Below are positions 10,781 through 18,727 of a stretch of DNA of 50,433 nucleotides, one piece after another; the stretch's first letter is position 1; the number at the start of each line of letters is the position of its first letter. Where the stretch lies: contig CALENB010000135.1 of NCBI GenBank assembly GCA_937910235.1, positions 1-50,433 of the forward strand. The letters run 5' to 3'. The translations under genes were made by a program, and so were the position numbers. The stretch is from an uncultured Myxococcales bacterium (GTDB lineage: Bacteria; Myxococcota_A; UBA9042). A model generated the notes under the pieces. The model had not been told where the DNA came from. It saw only the letters and a program-made list of their open reading frames with translations, and did no database searches.

Positions 10781-11449
10781 CTAGCGACTCAGCCCATCCC
10801 GATTGAAGTTGGCGCAGATGCTCGGGTCATCGACCTCCACGTCGACACGAACCTCCGCGTCGAGCGCTTGGATGAGCCGGTCGAGCCGCCCCGTCGTTGG
10901 GTCGGCGTCGCGCACCGCCTGCACCAGCGCCGGACTGAGCAACACCGGGTGACCGCGCCGCGGGCCCGTCGGCGTCTGCACCCAGGGCCGGATCACCTGC
11001 CAACGGTGGCCCCGCAAAGTCAGCGTCGCAGCGCGGCGCAGCAACGTCGCGAACACGCGCTCGGGCGGGCATGGGCAGTCGACGGGCAGCAGGAAGGTCG
11101 GCTGCGCCTCGGTCGCGACCGCCGCCAGACCCACTTGCAGGGAGGCCAGCATCTCGGCGTCGGGATCGGCGGGGACGACGACGACGTCCGCCGGCAGCGT
11201 CACGCTGTCTGCGTTTGCCGACTCCAACGCCTCGGGCGGCACAGCCGGCTCGGGCGACGTGGGCGGCACGGCGCTCGGATGCAGCACCGCCGCGATGTGA
11301 CCACAGCCAGCGGCGCGCAGCGCCGCCACCTGCCAGCGCCACATCGCCACGCCATCCCGTATTTTCAAGGCTTTGGGGCCGCCGGCGCGTCGCCCGTGGC
11401 CGCCGGCGACGAGCACCGCGTTGGCCGTTGTGGTCGCGTGGTCGCTCAT
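10781..11449 (-). CDS. mocA: MocA/MobA-like molybdenum cofactor nucleotidyltransferase
   Basis: This 222-residue protein opens with VLVAGGHGRRAGGPKALKIR, the nucleotide-binding start (L-A-G-G-x-S-x-R-x-G-x-x-K) of the MobA/MocA NTP-transferase family. LLPVDCPCP corresponds to the metal-binding D-x-P segment, and RGHPVLLSPAL to the R-G-H-P motif. Such enzymes attach CMP (MocA) or GMP (MobA) to molybdopterin. Beside XdhC and a xanthine dehydrogenase-type enzyme, making molybdopterin cytosine dinucleotide is the natural role; which nucleotide is used cannot be read from the sequence. Its ATG overlaps the xdhC stop by 4 bp (ATGA). The serine of the usual L-A-G-G-x-S motif is a His here (GGHGRRAG). 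It is the last gene of the operon. Confidence 0.85.
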   Translation of the reverse strand: MSDHATTTANAVLVAGGHGRRAGGPKALKIRDGVAMWRWQVAALRAAGCGHIAAVLHPSAVPPTSPEPAVPPEALESANADSVTLPADVVVVPADPDAEMLASLQVGLAAVATEAQPTFLLPVDCPCPPERVFATLLRRAATLTLRGHRWQVIRPWVQTPTGPRRGHPVLLSPALVQAVRDADPTTGRLDRLIQALDAEVRVDVEVDDPSICANFNRDGLSR

Positions 11450-12546
11450 GTCGCGGTCGATTCCGAGTGGCTGAGGGTGGCGATACGCACCATCAGCTCC
11501 GCGGCGACAGACGTCGCGATCTCGCCGGGGCGCTTGCCGCCAATCGGCCGCTCCACGCCTGACGCGTCTGGTTGGCGCAGCCCGATGGGCGCGACCAAGC
11601 GTGCCAAGGCCGCCTCGCTCACACCCTGGCCAGTCAGGCGTCGCCGCAGGGTGGTGATCTTCGTCCTCGAGCCGATGACACCCACGTGCGCCAGCGGCCG
11701 CTCACCCACATCAGGGCGTCGCAACAGCGCCCACGCCAGCTGTCGATCCAGCTCATGGTCGTGGGTCATGATCAGCGCCAGTGTGCGGGACGGGTCGGGA
11801 GCTGGGCCCGTGACGGCTGCGGCCACGTCATCCTCAGCGGCCAAGGCCGGTGGTGCGGCTTGGTCCGTCGTCGCTCGCGCAGCCAACCAGCCCCACGCCG
11901 CCAAGACCGCCACCGGCGGCGCCGCGTGCACCTCTGTGGTCGGCGGAAACGCCGACGCATGGGCCCATTCAGGTCGCGCATCGACGACCACGACCCGCCA
12001 AGGCTGCACCTGCAGCACCTGCGCCAGCGCTCTGGTGACGTGGCCTGCGCCAAAGATGACGACCGTCCACGGCGCGGTGGGTCGCTCCGTCAGCTGATGA
12101 TCCCCGACGCCCGTCACGAAGGGCGCGCTGGACGCCTCAGCGGCCCGCAGCTTCGCCGCCAACGCCCAGGCCGCCGGTGCCGTGAGGGGCTCAAGCCGCA
12201 CCGCGACACGGCCACCGCAACACTGCGCCAGCGCTGGGCCGAGCGCCCAACTGCGCAGCGAGGCCGGAAAATCGATGTTTTCGGTGAGTAAGCCGCACGC
12301 CTCATGCATGGCGCGTCGCTCGAGGTGACCGCCGCCGATGGTGCCGGCGAGCAGCCCACCATCGCGCACCAGCATGCGCGCCCCAGGGCCGCGGGGCGCT
12401 GAGCCCTGGGCGCGCACCACCGTCACGAGCGCCGCGGGCGCCGCACCTTCGGCCAGGAGCTCTGGCAGCGACGCGACGAGCGCCTGGCCGTCGGCGTCCA
12501 TGGGTGGTCCGTCGTCGAGGTGCGTCACGTCGCCTGCGTCCGTCAC
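11446..12546 (-). CDS. xdhC: XdhC-family molybdenum cofactor insertion/sulfuration protein
   Basis: XdhC proteins bind molybdenum cofactor, protect it, promote its sulfuration and insert it into xanthine dehydrogenase. The N-terminal XdhC/CoxI domain shows TVVRAQGSAPRGPGARMLV and GTIGGGHLE. A Rossmann domain follows (VVIFGAGHVTRALAQVL, VVVVDARPEW), then THDHELD and VGVIGSRTKITTLRRRL near the C-terminus. The PIGL motif is followed by a longer segment than usual before the P-G-E-I-A-T-S helix. The reading frame stays open upstream to 13221, but that part is a shadow of the FAD gene. I favour GTG at 12546, whose GTGA overlaps the stop of the FAD gene, matching the coupling of the other operon genes; ATG at 12501 is the alternative. 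Confidence 0.88.
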   Translation of the reverse strand: MTDAGDVTHLDDGPPMDADGQALVASLPELLAEGAAPAALVTVVRAQGSAPRGPGARMLVRDGGLLAGTIGGGHLERRAMHEACGLLTENIDFPASLRSWALGPALAQCCGGRVAVRLEPLTAPAAWALAAKLRAAEASSAPFVTGVGDHQLTERPTAPWTVVIFGAGHVTRALAQVLQVQPWRVVVVDARPEWAHASAFPPTTEVHAAPPVAVLAAWGWLAARATTDQAAPPALAAEDDVAAAVTGPAPDPSRTLALIMTHDHELDRQLAWALLRRPDVGERPLAHVGVIGSRTKITTLRRRLTGQGVSEAALARLVAPIGLRQPDASGVERPIGGKRPGEIATSVAAELMVRIATLSHSESTAT

Positions 12547-13433
12547 GATGGCCGCGTCTCGCGAATCGCCTGGCACACCAAGCGATGGAACACCTCGGCC
12601 CGATACGCAGCCGTGGAGCGGACGTCGTCCAGCGGTCGCAAGTCGGCGTCCTGGGCGCGGCGTAGCCCAGCGACGGTGGCCTGGTCGAGCGTCGTGAGGC
12701 CGCGTAGGGCGTTCTCGAGGTGGCGCGCGCGGCAGATGGTGGCGGCCATGGAGGTGGCGACGATCCGCGTGTCGGCGATGGCGTCGTCCAGCCAGGTGAT
12801 CCGCGCGCTCAGGCCGACCTTGGTGATGGCTTGGAACGCCCGCGTGCCCACCTTGCGAAAGAACTGCTCGCGCGTCGGGCCGGGCTGCTTGGGCACCGTG
12901 AGCGCGCTGATGAGCTCGTCTGCGCGCCGCGCGGTGCTGCGATACCCCGTGTAATACGCCTCGAGCGGCACCGTCCGCTCGCCGCGGCTGCTCTGCAGAT
13001 GCACCACCGCGTCCAGCGCGAGCAGGGCGGGGGCGGCGTCGGCGGCTGGGGAGCCGTTCTCGACGTTGCCCGCGAACGTGCCGCGCGCTTGGATCTGCGT
13101 GGCGCCCACCAGCCCCGCCGCCTGCATCAAGATCGGCAGCTCGGCGTGGCTTCGCGCGTCGGCGAGCAGGGTCGCATAGGTGCACATCGCCCCGATGCGC
13201 AGGCTGCCGTCGTGCGCCCAAGTGAAGCCACCCAACGCCGCTTTCAGCCCGGAGAGATCGAGGAAATCGCGCTGCCGCAGCCCGCCGTGGTTGGCCTCGA
13301 CCATGATGTCGGTGCCACCGGCGAGCGGCCGCAACGGCGCGTCACGCACGGCCGCGTCGGCGAGCTGATCGAGCGCCTCGGCGAGGGAGGTGGGGCGGCT
13401 AACGCGGACTGCGCTGTGGGCGATGGAGGACAT
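12543..13433 (-). CDS. Molybdenum hydroxylase FAD-binding subunit
   Basis: This is the 296-residue medium subunit of a xanthine dehydrogenase-type enzyme. It passes electrons from the iron-sulphur clusters to FAD and on to NAD or another acceptor. FAD-binding motifs are AGGTDIMVEANHG near residue 40 and GATQIQARGTFAGNVENGSP near 110, both typical of the CO dehydrogenase flavoprotein family. The C-terminal domain includes FFRKVGTRAFQAI and ends about 60 residues after it. No extra 4Fe-4S loop is seen. The gene follows the phytochelatin synthase-like gene after 12 bp and overlaps xdhC by 4 bp, so its product joins the subunits encoded at 14213 and 14746. Confidence 0.92.
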   Translation of the reverse strand: MSSIAHSAVRVSRPTSLAEALDQLADAAVRDAPLRPLAGGTDIMVEANHGGLRQRDFLDLSGLKAALGGFTWAHDGSLRIGAMCTYATLLADARSHAELPILMQAAGLVGATQIQARGTFAGNVENGSPAADAAPALLALDAVVHLQSSRGERTVPLEAYYTGYRSTARRADELISALTVPKQPGPTREQFFRKVGTRAFQAITKVGLSARITWLDDAIADTRIVATSMAATICRARHLENALRGLTTLDQATVAGLRRAQDADLRPLDDVRSTAAYRAEVFHRLVCQAIRETRPS

Positions 13434-13445
13434 GGCTTGGCTCCC

Positions 13446-14216
13446 TCAAGAGGCGCCCGGCAGGCGCACATGCACCCAGCCGCGGCTCAGGTTTGCGCTG
13501 CTGTCGACCGCCGTCATCGCGGTGAAGAGCGCCGCGGTCTCGATCCAGACCGGCGGGTATTTGTAGCTGGAGACGTCGAGGACCAGGAAGCGGTCGGTCT
13601 TGTCGTCGTAGGCCGCGACGGGCGAGATGTGGCCGCCGCCCTGCTGTGCGATAGCCTTGCGATAGTAGTTCACGAGCAGCACGTCACCGCCCGGTCCACC
13701 GCCGCTCTCAACGTTGGCGCGGGCTTCCGTGCGGAACGCGTCGACGCTGCTGTCGCTGGCGTGCACCACCGTGGTCGTCGCGCCGTGGCTACGGAGCAGG
13801 CCGCCGAGCTGATCGAGCGTCATCCCGCCGAAAAACACGTCTTTGGCTTTGCGGACGGCCTCAGTCGCCGGCACGAAGAACCCCGACTGGGTCGTGCCCT
13901 TGCGGCCAAGCACCTTGAGCGCGATCACCGCGCTGGCGACGCCGCAGTAGCTGCCGTAGACCTGCGTCTCAAAGGCCGCTCGCAGGGGCGCGAGGTCGGC
14001 GTCGGCTGCGTTGCGCGTCGTCACCGCGGTGCCTGCGCCCGTCTCGATCGCCCACAGCGCCGTCGGCAACGGCAGGTCTTGTTGCGCTGGCCGGTAGATG
14101 CGCCAGAACCTGCGCGCCGGCTGCCACGCAAAGGCGACGCCTGCGACCACCGCGATGGCTAGCACCACGGTGACGACGCGACGCTTTCTCGATGCTGCAG
14201 GTGCGGTCTGGCTCAC
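13446..14216 (-). CDS. Membrane-anchored phytochelatin synthase-like peptidase
   Basis: This 256-residue protein has one N-terminal membrane anchor (residues 13-31) and then a bacterial-size phytochelatin synthase domain. The papain-like triad is visible: Cys91 in YGSYCGVASAVIALKVLG, His196 in GGGHISPVAAYD, and Asp214 in FLVLDVSSYKYPPVW; MTLDQLGGLLRSHG and HASDSSVDAF also match cyanobacterial relatives. Bacterial members cleave Gly from glutathione or its S-conjugates and make little phytochelatin. The topology suggests the domain lies in the periplasm. Its GTG start overlaps the stop of the 2Fe-2S subunit gene (GTGA), and the FAD gene begins 12 bp after it, so it is embedded in the molybdenum hydroxylase operon, an unusual position. 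No role in hydroxylase maturation is known; a link to thiol or metal stress is inference. Confidence 0.88.
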   Translation of the reverse strand: MSQTAPAASRKRRVVTVVLAIAVVAGVAFAWQPARRFWRIYRPAQQDLPLPTALWAIETGAGTAVTTRNAADADLAPLRAAFETQVYGSYCGVASAVIALKVLGRKGTTQSGFFVPATEAVRKAKDVFFGGMTLDQLGGLLRSHGATTTVVHASDSSVDAFRTEARANVESGGGPGGDVLLVNYYRKAIAQQGGGHISPVAAYDDKTDRFLVLDVSSYKYPPVWIETAALFTAMTAVDSSANLSRGWVHVRLPGAS

Positions 14217-14749
14217 GCGTCGGCTCCGTCGGCGTCCGAGGCTGGCGCTTTGGCGTCACCCAGCGCCGCGGCGACGCTCGCGACGATGGCGGAGTAGCCC
14301 GTGCAGCGGCAGATGTTACCCGACAGCTTCTCGCGAATGGCGCTGGCGTCGAGCTTGCGATCGACCATCCACGCCGCCGTCACCACCATCCCGGGGGTGC
14401 AGATGCCACATTGCGCGCCGCCGTGCTGTACAAAAGCGGCCTGCACCGGATGCAGCGCGGCGTGGTCCGCGAGGCCTTCGACCGTGACGATCGTGCTGCC
14501 TTCACACTGGATCACCGGCACGAGACAGGCGTTGACGGGCTCGCCGTCGATGAGCACGGAACACGCGCCGCACTCGCCCTCACCGCAGCCTTCCTTGGTG
14601 CCGGGCAGGGCCAGATCGGTGCGCAAGACGTCGAGCAACCGCCGAAACGGCCGCACCATCAGCGCGCGCGGCTCGCCGTTGAGGGTAAAACTCACCCGCT
14701 GCGGCGGCACCGCGTCGGCTAGATGGCTATGGGCGTGGCTGACAGTCAT
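14213..14749 (-). CDS. Molybdenum hydroxylase 2Fe-2S subunit
   Basis: This 178-residue small subunit carries two 2Fe-2S clusters. The plant-ferredoxin-type cluster uses CGEGECGAC and the later Cys in VNACLVPV. The helical-domain cluster uses CGICTPGM and ICRCTGY. These are diagnostic of the xanthine dehydrogenase/CO dehydrogenase small-subunit family. It relays electrons from the molybdenum site to FAD. The N-terminal 20 residues are His/Ala-rich and without the twin-Arg signal seen in periplasmic aldehyde oxidoreductases, so the enzyme is probably cytoplasmic. The ATG overlaps the stop of the Mo subunit gene by 4 bp. Confidence 0.93.
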   Translation of the reverse strand: MTVSHAHSHLADAVPPQRVSFTLNGEPRALMVRPFRRLLDVLRTDLALPGTKEGCGEGECGACSVLIDGEPVNACLVPVIQCEGSTIVTVEGLADHAALHPVQAAFVQHGGAQCGICTPGMVVTAAWMVDRKLDASAIREKLSGNICRCTGYSAIVASVAAALGDAKAPASDADGADA

Positions 14750-17205
14750 CGGATCTCCTGGGCCTGTGCGTTGAGGACGGCCCGCATCAAGCGCTCCGGC
14801 GAGGCGGGCAGGGCGTCGATGTCGATCCCGAGGGCGGATGAGATGGCGTTGAGGATCGCCGGCGCCGGGCCATCCATCGGCAGCTCACCGATGCCCTTGG
14901 CGCCCCAGGGCCCGTAGGCGTAGGGGCTCTCCTGGAACAAGACGCGCACGTCGGGTACGTCGGCGAACGTCGGCACCACGTAGTTGGTCATGTTTGGGTT
15001 GCGCATCTGGCCGTCGACGTAGATTTGCTCTTCCAACAGCGCCCAGCCCATCGCCTGGACCACGCCGCCCTGGATCTGGCCCTCGGCGAGCATGGGGTTG
15101 AGGACCCGACCGATCTCTTGGCTGGCGACAAAATCGACGATGCGGGTCTGGAACGTCGTCAGGTCCACCTCCACGTCGGCGACGTAGGTGGCCCAGGCGA
15201 AGGTGCCGTACGCGATGCCTTTGTACGCGACGTCATCCCACTGACCTCCGGGCGGCCGCTCGTAGGTGGCCCAGCCCTCAAGCGGCCCGGATTCCTGGGT
15301 CGCGGCGGTGCAGAGCGCCCTACGAAGCCGATCGGTTCGGTACTTGCGGCCATGTGCGTCCGAGAGGGCGGAGGCGCGGTCGTCGTCGGGATCTGAGCGC
15401 AGATCGTCGTCGCTCAGGGCTCCACTGACCTCGAGGTTGCGCACCAGATCGTCGCTGGCACGGGCGACGAGGTGGCCGACCACCATCGAGGTGCGCGAGG
15501 CGACCGTCGGCCCGGAGTTGGGCACCTGATCGGTGTCAGGCCGCGCGATGGAGATGGCGTCGAGCGGCAGCCCCAGCGCGTCGGCAGCGATCTGGGTGAA
15601 GACGGTGATGGCGCCCTGGCCGATCTCCGTGTTGGCCGTGCACACCTCGACCCCGCCCTCGCCATTGGCACAGACCCGCGCCCGCAACATGACCTCCGAG
15701 GCCAAGCGATCTTCCCCAGCGCCCGTAAAACCAGCGCCGTGCATGAACGTCGCGACACCGACACCGCGCCGCAGCGGGTTGCCGCTGATCTCAGCTTCGG
15801 TGTTGAACAGGGCGTGAGCCTGCCGCCGCTGCTCGTAGCGCGCGGCCGTGAGGGCCTCGTCCATCCACTTGTGCAGCTCGATGGGTTCGTCGATGCGCTG
15901 ACTGATGGCCAAGGTGTCGCCGCGCACGATGAGATTGCGCCGTCGCAGCTCCACCGGATCGAGCCCCACCGCTCGGGCACAGCGGTCGAGGTGGCGCTCG
16001 AAGGCGAACACGGTCTGCGGCGCACCAAAGCCGCGAAAAGCCCCATGTGGCGGGGTATTGGAGAGGGTGACCCGGTTGTGGACCCGCACGTGGTCGACCC
16101 GATACGGCCCGATCGCGTGGATCGCGCCGCGCGACAGCACCACCGGCGACAGGGTCAGGTAGGCGCCGCCGTCCATGGTGACGTCCATGTCGATGGCCAG
16201 CAGATGCCCGTCAGCGTCCAGCGCCGCGCGCACTCGGGTGTGGCTGGGGTGGCGCTTGGTCGACGCGGCCATATCCTCGACACGATCGTAGATCAGCTTC
16301 ACCGGCCGGCGGGTCTTGAGCGCGAGCAGGCCGGCGTGACCAGCGATGATGGACGGAAACTCCTCTTTGCCGCCAAACCCACCGCCCGTCGCGGCCTGGA
16401 TGATCTGGACCGCCTTGTCCGGCAGCTGAAACAGGCTCGTCATGGCGCTGTGCACGTAGTAGGGGCACTGCATCGAGCCTTCGACGATCAACTTCCACGG
16501 CTTGCGCGGCCACACGGCACCTTCCGCGTCCTCCGGGGCGACCTCGACCCGCGCGATCATGCCGTTGGGTTCGATGTAGCACTGCTCCTGCGCCTGGGTC
16601 TCGTAGACCGCGGCGACCACATGGGCGGCGTTGTCGAAGACCTCGCGGAACGCGGCCGCGCTCTCATCGGCGGCGCCTTTGCTCACGAGGATGCGCTTGA
16701 AGACGTTGGCGTCGGGGCCATCTTCGCCGTGCTGCACTTGGTCTGGGGTGGGCGGCACGCGGTAGTCGTGCTGGGCAGTGGCCGCTTCGGTGCGGATCTC
16801 AACGAGCTGCACAGCGCGGCGCAGCACCTCTGGATCGGGGTGCGCCAGCAGCGCAACGGGCTCGCCGACGTGCCGGAATTCGTCGCGCACCAGAAAGGGC
16901 TGATCGCGGATCAGCAGCGAGACGAGGTTCGGATCGAGGCCGTCGAGCTTGGAGATCCGCGGGATGTCCTTGGCAGTGACCACGGCGATCTCACGCCAAT
17001 CGACGCCGTGCTCGCTGCCATCCCGAAAACGCAGCCCCGTGATGCGCCCCCGCGCGGTTTGGGTCCGCACGGTGGCGCCGTACAGGCCGTCGAACGGGAG
17101 ATCGTCGACGTAGTGCAGCGCTCCCGTGACCTTGTCTTTGGCATCTGGCCGGGGAATGGAGCGACCGACGCGATGGTCGCTAGAGAGCTTGTTTCCGTCG
17201 GGCAT
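14746..17205 (-). CDS. Molybdenum hydroxylase large (molybdopterin) subunit, xanthine dehydrogenase-like
   Basis: This 819-residue catalytic subunit holds the molybdopterin cofactor. Visible motifs are ATGGGFGGKEEFPS (substrate and cofactor pocket Gln-like loop), GAFRGFGAPQ (Arg that positions purines in xanthine dehydrogenases), EIGQGAITVFTQIAADALGL (cofactor binding) and GAKGIGELPMDG with the presumed catalytic Glu. The FRGFGxPQ form argues for a purine or aldehyde oxidoreductase and against CO dehydrogenase, which has a Cys-containing loop there. The exact substrate (xanthine, hypoxanthine, nicotinate or an aldehyde) cannot be fixed. It is the first gene of the operon; its ATG at 17205 lies 219 bp from the divergent arsR. 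Confidence 0.92.
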   Translation of the reverse strand: MPDGNKLSSDHRVGRSIPRPDAKDKVTGALHYVDDLPFDGLYGATVRTQTARGRITGLRFRDGSEHGVDWREIAVVTAKDIPRISKLDGLDPNLVSLLIRDQPFLVRDEFRHVGEPVALLAHPDPEVLRRAVQLVEIRTEAATAQHDYRVPPTPDQVQHGEDGPDANVFKRILVSKGAADESAAAFREVFDNAAHVVAAVYETQAQEQCYIEPNGMIARVEVAPEDAEGAVWPRKPWKLIVEGSMQCPYYVHSAMTSLFQLPDKAVQIIQAATGGGFGGKEEFPSIIAGHAGLLALKTRRPVKLIYDRVEDMAASTKRHPSHTRVRAALDADGHLLAIDMDVTMDGGAYLTLSPVVLSRGAIHAIGPYRVDHVRVHNRVTLSNTPPHGAFRGFGAPQTVFAFERHLDRCARAVGLDPVELRRRNLIVRGDTLAISQRIDEPIELHKWMDEALTAARYEQRRQAHALFNTEAEISGNPLRRGVGVATFMHGAGFTGAGEDRLASEVMLRARVCANGEGGVEVCTANTEIGQGAITVFTQIAADALGLPLDAISIARPDTDQVPNSGPTVASRTSMVVGHLVARASDDLVRNLEVSGALSDDDLRSDPDDDRASALSDAHGRKYRTDRLRRALCTAATQESGPLEGWATYERPPGGQWDDVAYKGIAYGTFAWATYVADVEVDLTTFQTRIVDFVASQEIGRVLNPMLAEGQIQGGVVQAMGWALLEEQIYVDGQMRNPNMTNYVVPTFADVPDVRVLFQESPYAYGPWGAKGIGELPMDGPAPAILNAISSALGIDIDALPASPERLMRAVLNAQAQEIR

Positions 17206-17295: not shown

Positions 17296-17351
17296 GTCGA
17301 TAGGTGCCAGGCGTTTATCAGCGGGGTCGATAGGTGCCAGGCACTTATCAG
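17296..17351. repeat. Pair of REP-like palindromic direct repeats
   Basis: Two 26-bp copies (17296-17321 and 17326-17351; 24 of 26 bases identical, 30-bp period) each start gtcgataggtgccaggc. The second contains GATAGGTGCCAGGCACTTATC, a near-perfect palindrome with GTGCC/GGCAC arms; the first has a changed right arm (GGCGTTTATC). Palindromes with a GTGCC-x-GGCAC core recur in many bacterial genomes as REP-like elements. No transposase is seen nearby. They sit between the divergent molybdenum hydroxylase and ars operons. Confidence 0.7.
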
Positions 17352-17417: not shown

Positions 17418-17442
17418 TCGAAACATGTCGAATTATCGAATT
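17399..17442. promoter_or_regulatory. Nested ArsR operator palindromes over the -10 box and start codon
   Basis: AATTCGA occurs at 17399-17405 and 17415-17421, and its complement TCGAATT at 17428-17434 and 17436-17442. The inner pair makes a perfect 7-6-7 inverted repeat (17415-17434) that covers the -10 element and the ATG. This is the expected placement for an autoregulated ArsR/SmtB repressor site; binding itself is inferred. Confidence 0.7.
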
Positions 17443-17853
17443 ATCTCCGCCCCCGAACTCGTCGCCCTCTTCGCCGCGCTGGGCAACCCCCATCGCCTGG
17501 CGCTCTTCCAGCGCCTCGCGACCTGCTGCGTGCCGGGCACCCGCTGCTCGCTTGACGCCGCGACCCGCATCAGCCTCAGCGACCTCGGCGCTGACCTCGC
17601 CATCGCGCCGTCGACGCTCTCGCACCACCTCAAGACCCTCCGCAACGCCGGCCTCGTCAAGACCGAGCGCGGCGCCAACGGCGTGACGTGCTGGGTCGAG
17701 CCTGCGGTCCTCGTCGCGCTCTCGGGCTTCTTCCTCGCGCCCCTCGCGCCCCTCGACACACGCGACGCCGACCCCACCGCCGCCGACCCCACCGCCGCCG
17801 ACCCCACCGGGCCCACCAGCCCCACGCCCACCGGAGCACGTCCCCATGGCTGA
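17425..17853 (+). CDS. arsR: ArsR/SmtB-family repressor of the arsenic methyltransferase
   Basis: This 142-residue protein carries a winged helix-turn-helix: LFAALGNPHRLALFQRLATC (helices 1-2), then LSDLGADLAIAPSTLSHHLK and TLRNAGLVKTERGANGVTCW (recognition helix and wing). Cys34, Cys35 and Cys41 in the segment CCVPGTRC are candidates for trivalent arsenic binding, placed differently from the E. coli ELCVCDL type. The C-terminal 30 residues are a DPTAA low-complexity tail encoded by three 15-bp repeats. It overlaps arsM by 8 bp. In this family the free repressor sits on its own promoter and lets go on binding As(III); the palindromes over its start codon fit this. Confidence 0.88.
   Translation: MSNYRIISAPELVALFAALGNPHRLALFQRLATCCVPGTRCSLDAATRISLSDLGADLAIAPSTLSHHLKTLRNAGLVKTERGANGVTCWVEPAVLVALSGFFLAPLAPLDTRDADPTAADPTAADPTGPTSPTPTGARPHG
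17767..17811. repeat. 15-bp minisatellite in the arsR tail
   Basis: Three 15-bp units (gccgaccccaccgcc, the last ending ggg) encode the DPTAA tail of ArsR just before the arsM start. Confidence 0.88.
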
Positions 17854-18727
17854 CACCACCGCCTCCTGTTGCCCGCCGCGCACGCCCGCCAGCAGCGCCG
17901 CCGCCACACCAACCGCCGTCGACCGCGACGCGCTGCGCAACGACGTCCGCGGCGCCTACGCCCAAGTCGCCCTGGGCGAGACCGCCGGCGAGACGGTCGG
18001 CACCGCCGGCAGCTGTTGCGGCGTGTCCGACGACGCCGCTATCAACACCCTCATCTCCACGCGGCTCGGCTACTCTGAGCGCGAGCTCAGCAGCGTCCCC
18101 AAAGGCGCCGATCTCGGCCTCGGCTGCGGCAATCCCAAGGCCATCGCCGCGCTGCAGGTCGGCGAGATCGTCGTCGATCTCGGCTCCGGCGCTGGCTTCG
18201 ACTGCTTCCTCGCGGCCCACGAGGTCGGCGAGAGCGGCCTGGTCATCGGCGTCGACATGACCCCCGAGATGATCTCCAAAGCCCGCGCCAATGCGGCCAA
18301 AGGCGGCTTCAGCAGCGTCGAGTTCCGCCTGGGCGAGATCGAACACCTCCCCGTCGCCAACGGCACGGTTGATGTGATCATCTCCAACTGCGTGATCAAC
18401 CTGTCGCCCGACAAACCCCAGGTCTTCCGCGAGGCGTTCCGCGTCCTCAAGAAGAACGGCCGCCTCGCGATCTCCGACGTCGTCGCCACCATCGAGCTGC
18501 CCGAGGCGATGCGCAACGACAAGGCGCTCATCGCCGGCTGCATGGGCAACGCCGCCCTGATCAGCGACCTGGACGCCGCCATGGCCGCGGCCGGATTCGT
18601 CGATATTCAGATCGCCCCAAAGGACGCCTCGCGCGACTTCATCAAGGACTGGGCGCCCGGCACCGGCGTCGAGGACTACGTGTTGTCAGCGACCATCGAA
18701 GCGCGGAAGCCGGGTGGCTGCTGCTGA
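17846..18727 (+). CDS. arsM: Arsenite S-adenosylmethionine methyltransferase
   Basis: ArsM methylates As(III) with SAM to volatile or less harmful methylarsenicals in the cytoplasm. The 293-residue protein has the SAM motif VVDLGSGAGFDCFLA (residues 109-123) and the conserved cysteines of the family: Cys94 in GLGCGNP, Cys182 in SNCVINLSPDK and Cys232 in AGCMGNA, which match the arsenic-binding triad of algal ArsM. Further pairs are found at the N-terminus (Cys8-Cys9, Cys57-Cys58) and as a C-terminal Cys-Cys end. It overlaps arsR by 8 bp and is certainly cotranscribed. Length agrees with bacterial ArsM. It converges with the MuiA gene, with a 15-bp gap. Confidence 0.93.
   Translation: MADTTASCCPPRTPASSAAATPTAVDRDALRNDVRGAYAQVALGETAGETVGTAGSCCGVSDDAAINTLISTRLGYSERELSSVPKGADLGLGCGNPKAIAALQVGEIVVDLGSGAGFDCFLAAHEVGESGLVIGVDMTPEMISKARANAAKGGFSSVEFRLGEIEHLPVANGTVDVIISNCVINLSPDKPQVFREAFRVLKKNGRLAISDVVATIELPEAMRNDKALIAGCMGNAALISDLDAAMAAAGFVDIQIAPKDASRDFIKDWAPGTGVEDYVLSATIEARKPGGCC

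Follow-up and report, generated by a model that had tools for sequence, protein, structure and literature searches.

A half-length phytochelatin synthase gene within a molybdenum hydroxylase operon of an uncultured Myxococcales genus

A stretch of 50,433 nucleotides from an uncultured Myxococcales bacterium, here called the window, carries a gene of the phytochelatin synthase (PCS) family between two subunit genes of a molybdenum hydroxylase. What is such an enzyme doing there: does it serve the hydroxylase, or does it share its operon for other reasons? The role of bacterial half-length PCS is itself unsettled, the Nostoc enzyme being good at cutting glutathione and poor at making phytochelatins.

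Operon architecture and conservation within the genus

Six genes on the minus strand, running from 17205 to 10781, form a compact operon. The first (14746-17205) encodes an 819-residue large, molybdopterin-binding subunit of the xanthine dehydrogenase type (PF02738/PF20256/PF01315). It is followed by genes for a 178-residue 2Fe-2S subunit (14213-14749; PF01799/PF00111) whose N-terminus has no Tat motif, a half-length PCS of 256 residues (13446-14216; PF05023, E 5.2e-46), and a 296-residue FAD subunit (12543-13433; PF00941/PF03450). The operon ends with an XdhC maturation factor of 366 residues, read from a GTG start in a checked frame (11446-12546; 196 bits against the TIGR02964 cut-off of 161.6 in a profile search), and a MobA-like nucleotidyltransferase of the molybdenum cofactor cytidylyltransferase type (10781-11449; PF12804), which matches TIGR03310 weakly. 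The junctions measure, in order, −4, −4, +12, −4 and −4 bp. A prior sequence-only reading of this DNA had described a six-gene unit with a PCS-like gene lodged between those for the 2Fe-2S and FAD subunits and coupled to its upstream neighbor; the coordinates, the position and the coupling all hold, with a 4 bp overlap at every junction except the 12 bp gap between PCS and FAD. The MobA-like proteins of two other genomes (G010, L077:11403-12341; G019, L018:6966-7916) have a DUF309 domain at the N-terminus, which the window's protein lacks.

A PF05023 profile search covered the four members of the genus (G000, G019, G020 and G021) and 48 other genomes of the class. The family is present in all four and in none of the 48, and in each of the four the gene lies between those for the 2Fe-2S and FAD subunits, extending the arrangement beyond the window genome and ruling out a peculiarity of one assembly. 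The distance to the 2Fe-2S gene is −4, −4, 0 and +8 bp, and that to the FAD gene +12, −4, +18 and −4 bp, in G000, G019, G020 and G021, respectively. Because the same junctions recur in four independent genomes, the arrangement is real, due neither to chance nor to misassembly. The surroundings differ: next to the operon, G019 and G021 have none of the genes that flank it in the window, and G020 has some of them, so that the operon and its PCS stayed together as the DNA around them changed.

The four PCS proteins share 52-62% identity with a dN/dS of ~0.4, denoting purifying selection, among species whose synonymous sites are very divergent (dS 0.7 to over 2). The large and 2Fe-2S subunits are less variable, at 72-85% identity, while XdhC is about as variable as PCS. 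In the PCS tree the four proteins form one clade (support 100/99), and the nearest sequence outside the genus comes from another family (G070), where the gene adjoins dnaJ and a pseudouridine synthase gene and has no telling neighbor. The arrangement is limited to one lineage and points to a single insertion event in the ancestor of the genus.

The phytochelatin synthase-like protein and its predicted compartment

The protein belongs to peptidase family C83: it scores 156.9 bits against a PF05023 cut-off of 24.9 and covers positions 3-210 of the 210 in the profile. Its catalytic triad, C91/H196/D214, is complete and consists of exactly the residues that had been proposed from the letters, and its oxyanion Gln is Q85. 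The second-substrate or cavity residues named for Nostoc PCS (Gln64, Arg173, Lys206 and Tyr207; PMC3855540) are retained in the alignment as Q85, R186, K219 and Y220. An AlphaFold model built with 17 aligned relatives has a mean pLDDT of 93.7 and opens with a helix spanning residues 10-41. The best solved Foldseek match of this model is 2bu3 (TMt 0.92-0.95; for 2bu3_B, E 2.4e-22, TMt 0.92 and rmsd 1.4), the acyl-enzyme structure of Alr0975, with which it shares a papain-like fold. Profile and fold together confirm the PCS-like identity.

The protein stops after the catalytic domain, the C-terminal domain of eukaryotic-type PCS being absent. The four conserved Cys of the true, eukaryotic-type enzymes, which in AtPCS1 are C90, C91, C109 and C113 (PMC11314372), are likewise not present as a set, and the sole Cys of the window protein is C91. 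Elsewhere, two PCS-family proteins (L109 in G087 and L111 in G099) have the catalytic Cys replaced, reading NWSAPA and EWGGVA instead of xYCGVA; these probably either lack activity or catalyze a different chemistry.

The N-terminal helix, at about residues 10-41, is a membrane helix, which bears out the membrane anchor claimed earlier, and a hydrophobic helix opens the PCS proteins of all four genus members. PCS relatives in alphaproteobacteria, Gallionellaceae and Chlamydiota have N-termini that resemble cleavable signal sequences. Export is the simplest reading of this element and would place the catalytic domain in the periplasm; because the helix of the window protein has Arg residues on either side, its orientation is likely rather than certain. 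Export signals were seen in none of the 2Fe-2S, FAD and large-subunit sequences. If PCS is exported, it and the dehydrogenase would act in different compartments.

The hydroxylase and its orthologs

In alignment, the large subunit keeps the equivalents of bovine E802, R880, R912, F914, F1009, T1010 and E1261, residues with defined roles in the xanthine dehydrogenase pocket. At these seven positions L090, the genome's second hydroxylase, reads S, Y, R, H, Y, C and E, five of them different. Two other genera of the family, g7 (G010, L077) and g2 (G001, L080), encode the large subunit, 2Fe-2S subunit, FAD subunit, XdhC and MobA-like protein in the same order. PCS is absent from both of these operons, the 2Fe-2S gene leading directly to the FAD gene at +3 and −4 bp, and the PF05023 search found none anywhere in the two genomes. 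All seven pocket residues are identical in the PCS-bearing and PCS-less orthologs. To judge by these sequences, PCS is dispensable for the persistence of the operon in the sister genera, and an essential part for it in the hydroxylase is ruled out. The sequence-only reading had itself singled out, as counting against it, a gene confined to one genome or missing from the operons of near relatives: the first is not what is found, the gene being in four genomes, and the second is, in the sister genera. Large-subunit homologs about 58-63% identical also occur at L078, L081 and L082 (G011, G014 and G017), where no 2Fe-2S or FAD genes were detected beside them.

The G010 operon diverges from a urate-degradation cluster (L077:177-4825) encoding HIUase, an allantoicase/OHCU decarboxylase fusion, an amidohydrolase and urate oxidase (PF06181), with transposase pieces in between. 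This neighborhood and the pocket residues indicate that the hydroxylase is most likely a xanthine dehydrogenase, one that does not need PCS. It is nonetheless not a member of the curated equivalogs: its structural subunits score under the NCBIfam cut-offs for pucD (456.8 bits against 783.65) and XdhA, and XdhC alone passes. No HIUase turned up in G001 or in any of the PCS-bearing genomes, so that the four genus members may process urate by another route. The xanthine dehydrogenase-type pocket and the urate oxidase, HIUase, allantoicase and OHCU decarboxylase genes beside the sister operon also speak against the earlier suggestion that products of glutathione conjugates feed the hydroxylase, as these would be unlikely substrates.

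Readings of the arrangement and comparison with known systems

The reading we favor, at about even confidence, is that an exported glutathione or γ-Glu-Cys peptidase was captured for co-expression and takes no step in hydroxylase chemistry or maturation. The half-length PCS would be membrane-anchored and exported, with its catalytic domain on the periplasmic side. Because its residues match those of the Nostoc half-PCS, which is fast at removing glycine from GSH and slow at making PC2 (PMC3855540), a γ-Glu-Cys thioester most likely forms at C91 and is then hydrolyzed, the substrate being glutathione or related γ-glutamyl thiols. The products would be glycine and γ-glutamylcysteine, and the latter could be degraded further by the cell's γ-glutamyltransferase. 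Genes for that enzyme and for a GSH-synthetase-type protein are present in the genus genomes elsewhere than in the operon; a glutamate-cysteine-ligase-type gene, also away from it, occurs in three of the four members and did not turn up in G019, which is 67% complete. The genus ancestor would already have had the xanthine dehydrogenase operon; the PCS gene would have entered it at the 2Fe-2S/FAD boundary and been retained there under translational coupling, the operon providing co-expression with purine breakdown. The benefit may be the joint recovery of nitrogen and sulfur from nucleotides and thiols, the purpose we prefer, or a response to shared stress; with one insertion event, such a benefit and plain operon inertia can hardly be told apart.

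A possible though unlikely account is that the gene landed by chance, has an independent function and draws nothing but a promoter from the operon, with no common physiology. The single origin inside one genus and the unchanged pocket of the PCS-less hydroxylases are in keeping with this, as is the faster evolution of PCS than of the large and 2Fe-2S subunits; XdhC, however, evolves about as fast in the same operon, so speed alone says little. Against a chance arrival stand the tight coupling on both sides of the gene and the keeping of the same site in four species despite their synonymous divergence and rearranged flanks.

It is doubtful that the operon is a metal(loid)-stress unit in which PCS makes or trims thiol peptides for As and Cd tolerance under joint control with the genes next to it. 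An ArsR-type regulator (17425-17853, plus strand) and an arsenite methyltransferase, ArsM (17846-18727, plus strand), diverge from the window's operon, and the same divergent pair stands in G020; the PCS cavity residues are kept, and plants use phytochelatins to detoxify Cd and As(III) (PMC9917255). In G019 and G021, however, neither ArsR nor ArsM is a neighbor of the operon, and since the pair accompanies it in two of the four species, the case for ArsR control of the operon is weak. Moreover, the conserved ATTCGAAAC block of the intergenic region adjoins the arsR start, not that of the large-subunit gene, and half-PCS are poor phytochelatin makers (PMC3855540). The region between the large-subunit gene and arsR also contains, at 17297-17343, a 17 bp element, TGCCTGGCACCTATCGA, present twice 30 bp apart, one copy with a mismatch; as an exact match, the 17-mer GTGCCTGGCACCTATCG is present a single time in the genome, and G020 has CTGGCACTT repeats at the corresponding place.

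The remaining readings turn on the surroundings of PCS genes in other bacteria. Within the phylum, 379 genomes yielded 35 other matches, and the neighborhoods of 30 of these were examined, together with 11 loci from 398 Pseudomonadota genomes, 13 genome_contigs loci and three plasmid loci; at some, the sequence reached only 1.5 kb to either side or stopped where the contig ended, and for the plasmid loci the verdict relied on annotation. A molybdenum hydroxylase lies near none of the 57 loci examined, and a wider pattern of PCS adjoining such enzymes was accordingly not found. Eleven loci of alphaproteobacterial type (L006, L011-L017, L127, L128 and L135) embed PCS in a different conserved redox operon, in the order multicopper oxidase, cytochrome c, PCS, small subunit and GMC oxidoreductase, as on the Salipiger sp. 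CCB-MM3 plasmid NZ_CP014600.1 (L135:4000-9975). The small subunit is of the sugar-dehydrogenase (FAD-SLDH) type, and most of these operons also encode a protein of about 485 residues with no assigned identity. Their PCS proteins form one clade (100/94), separate from that of the window genus. A γ-glutamyltransferase gene adjoins PCS in Methylosinus, where it is profile-confirmed, and on a Pantoea sp. JZ29 plasmid, where genes for DsbB, a PCS-like protein and γ-glutamyltransferase stand in a row (L136:4222-7452); these two cases, both outside the genus clade, do not make a general rule among the loci seen. Around the Pantoea genes lie ATP-grasp, amidinotransferase and MFS genes that resemble a small-molecule cluster.

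The independent embedding of PCS in two unrelated dehydrogenase operons, the xanthine dehydrogenase operon of four species and the GMC operon of 11 loci, would suit a working partnership in which PCS supplies or removes a thiol or γ-glutamyl group, or processes a component, for the dehydrogenase around it. We regard this as very unlikely here: orthologous xanthine dehydrogenase operons that have no PCS keep the same active site, the dehydrogenase subunits carry no export signals while PCS carries one, and PCS is the sole homologous part common to both redox systems. The broader idea that exported PCS-like peptidases are recurrent dehydrogenase partners, captured independently by both kinds of operon and sharing a needed thiol or γ-glutamyl step, is improbable. 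Least tenable is the idea, put forward in the sequence-only reading, that PCS provides thiols or sulfur with which the molybdenum cofactor is sulfurated; the presence of XdhC in the operon and the thiol nature of PCS products would suit it, but it is extremely unlikely since PCS and the dehydrogenase would act in different compartments, sister operons contain XdhC and no PCS, and sulfuration in the R. capsulatus XdhC system is a cytoplasmic process carried out by a cysteine desulfurase.

The arrangement is built from known parts and kept within a genus. It is undescribed in the literature searched, where no paper brings xanthine dehydrogenase and phytochelatin synthase together with an operon; nor was the GMC-type operon found described there, the two papers that contain both PCS and GMC oxidoreductase appearing from their titles to be unrelated. 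The window locus, the GMC operons and the γ-glutamyltransferase neighbors provide genomic contexts, namely an exported enzyme, redox operons and glutathione breakdown, that make the question of half-PCS function testable.

Compared with three-subunit bacterial xanthine dehydrogenase operons of the pucABCDE and xdhABC types, the window operon has the same large, 2Fe-2S and FAD subunits, XdhC, cytidylyltransferase-like protein and pocket residues, and has PCS as an additional gene between those for the 2Fe-2S and FAD subunits. The PCS itself is closest in kind to Alr0975/NsPCS of Nostoc sp. PCC 7120 (PDB 2BTW, 2BU3, 6TH5 and 6THO), with ~41% identity, a single catalytic domain, the same fold, and the same triad and second-substrate cavity residues. 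Several differences set the two apart. The Nostoc gene does not share the xanthine dehydrogenase operon setting of the window gene, and PDB titles calling the crystallized form 'mature' imply an N-terminal leader in the Nostoc protein, whereas the window's N-terminal helix looks like a retained anchor. Tyr/His stands in place of the Nostoc Asn three residues ahead of the Tyr-Cys pair, and the loop after the catalytic helix is ~11 residues shorter, so the substrate may differ from that of Nostoc PCS. The GMC operons offer the nearest parallel in layout, an exported half-PCS amid dehydrogenase subunit genes with overlapping neighbors. Despite this likeness, their PCS belongs to another clade, ~32-41% identical to the window's, and their dehydrogenase is wholly different from xanthine dehydrogenase and apparently periplasmic.
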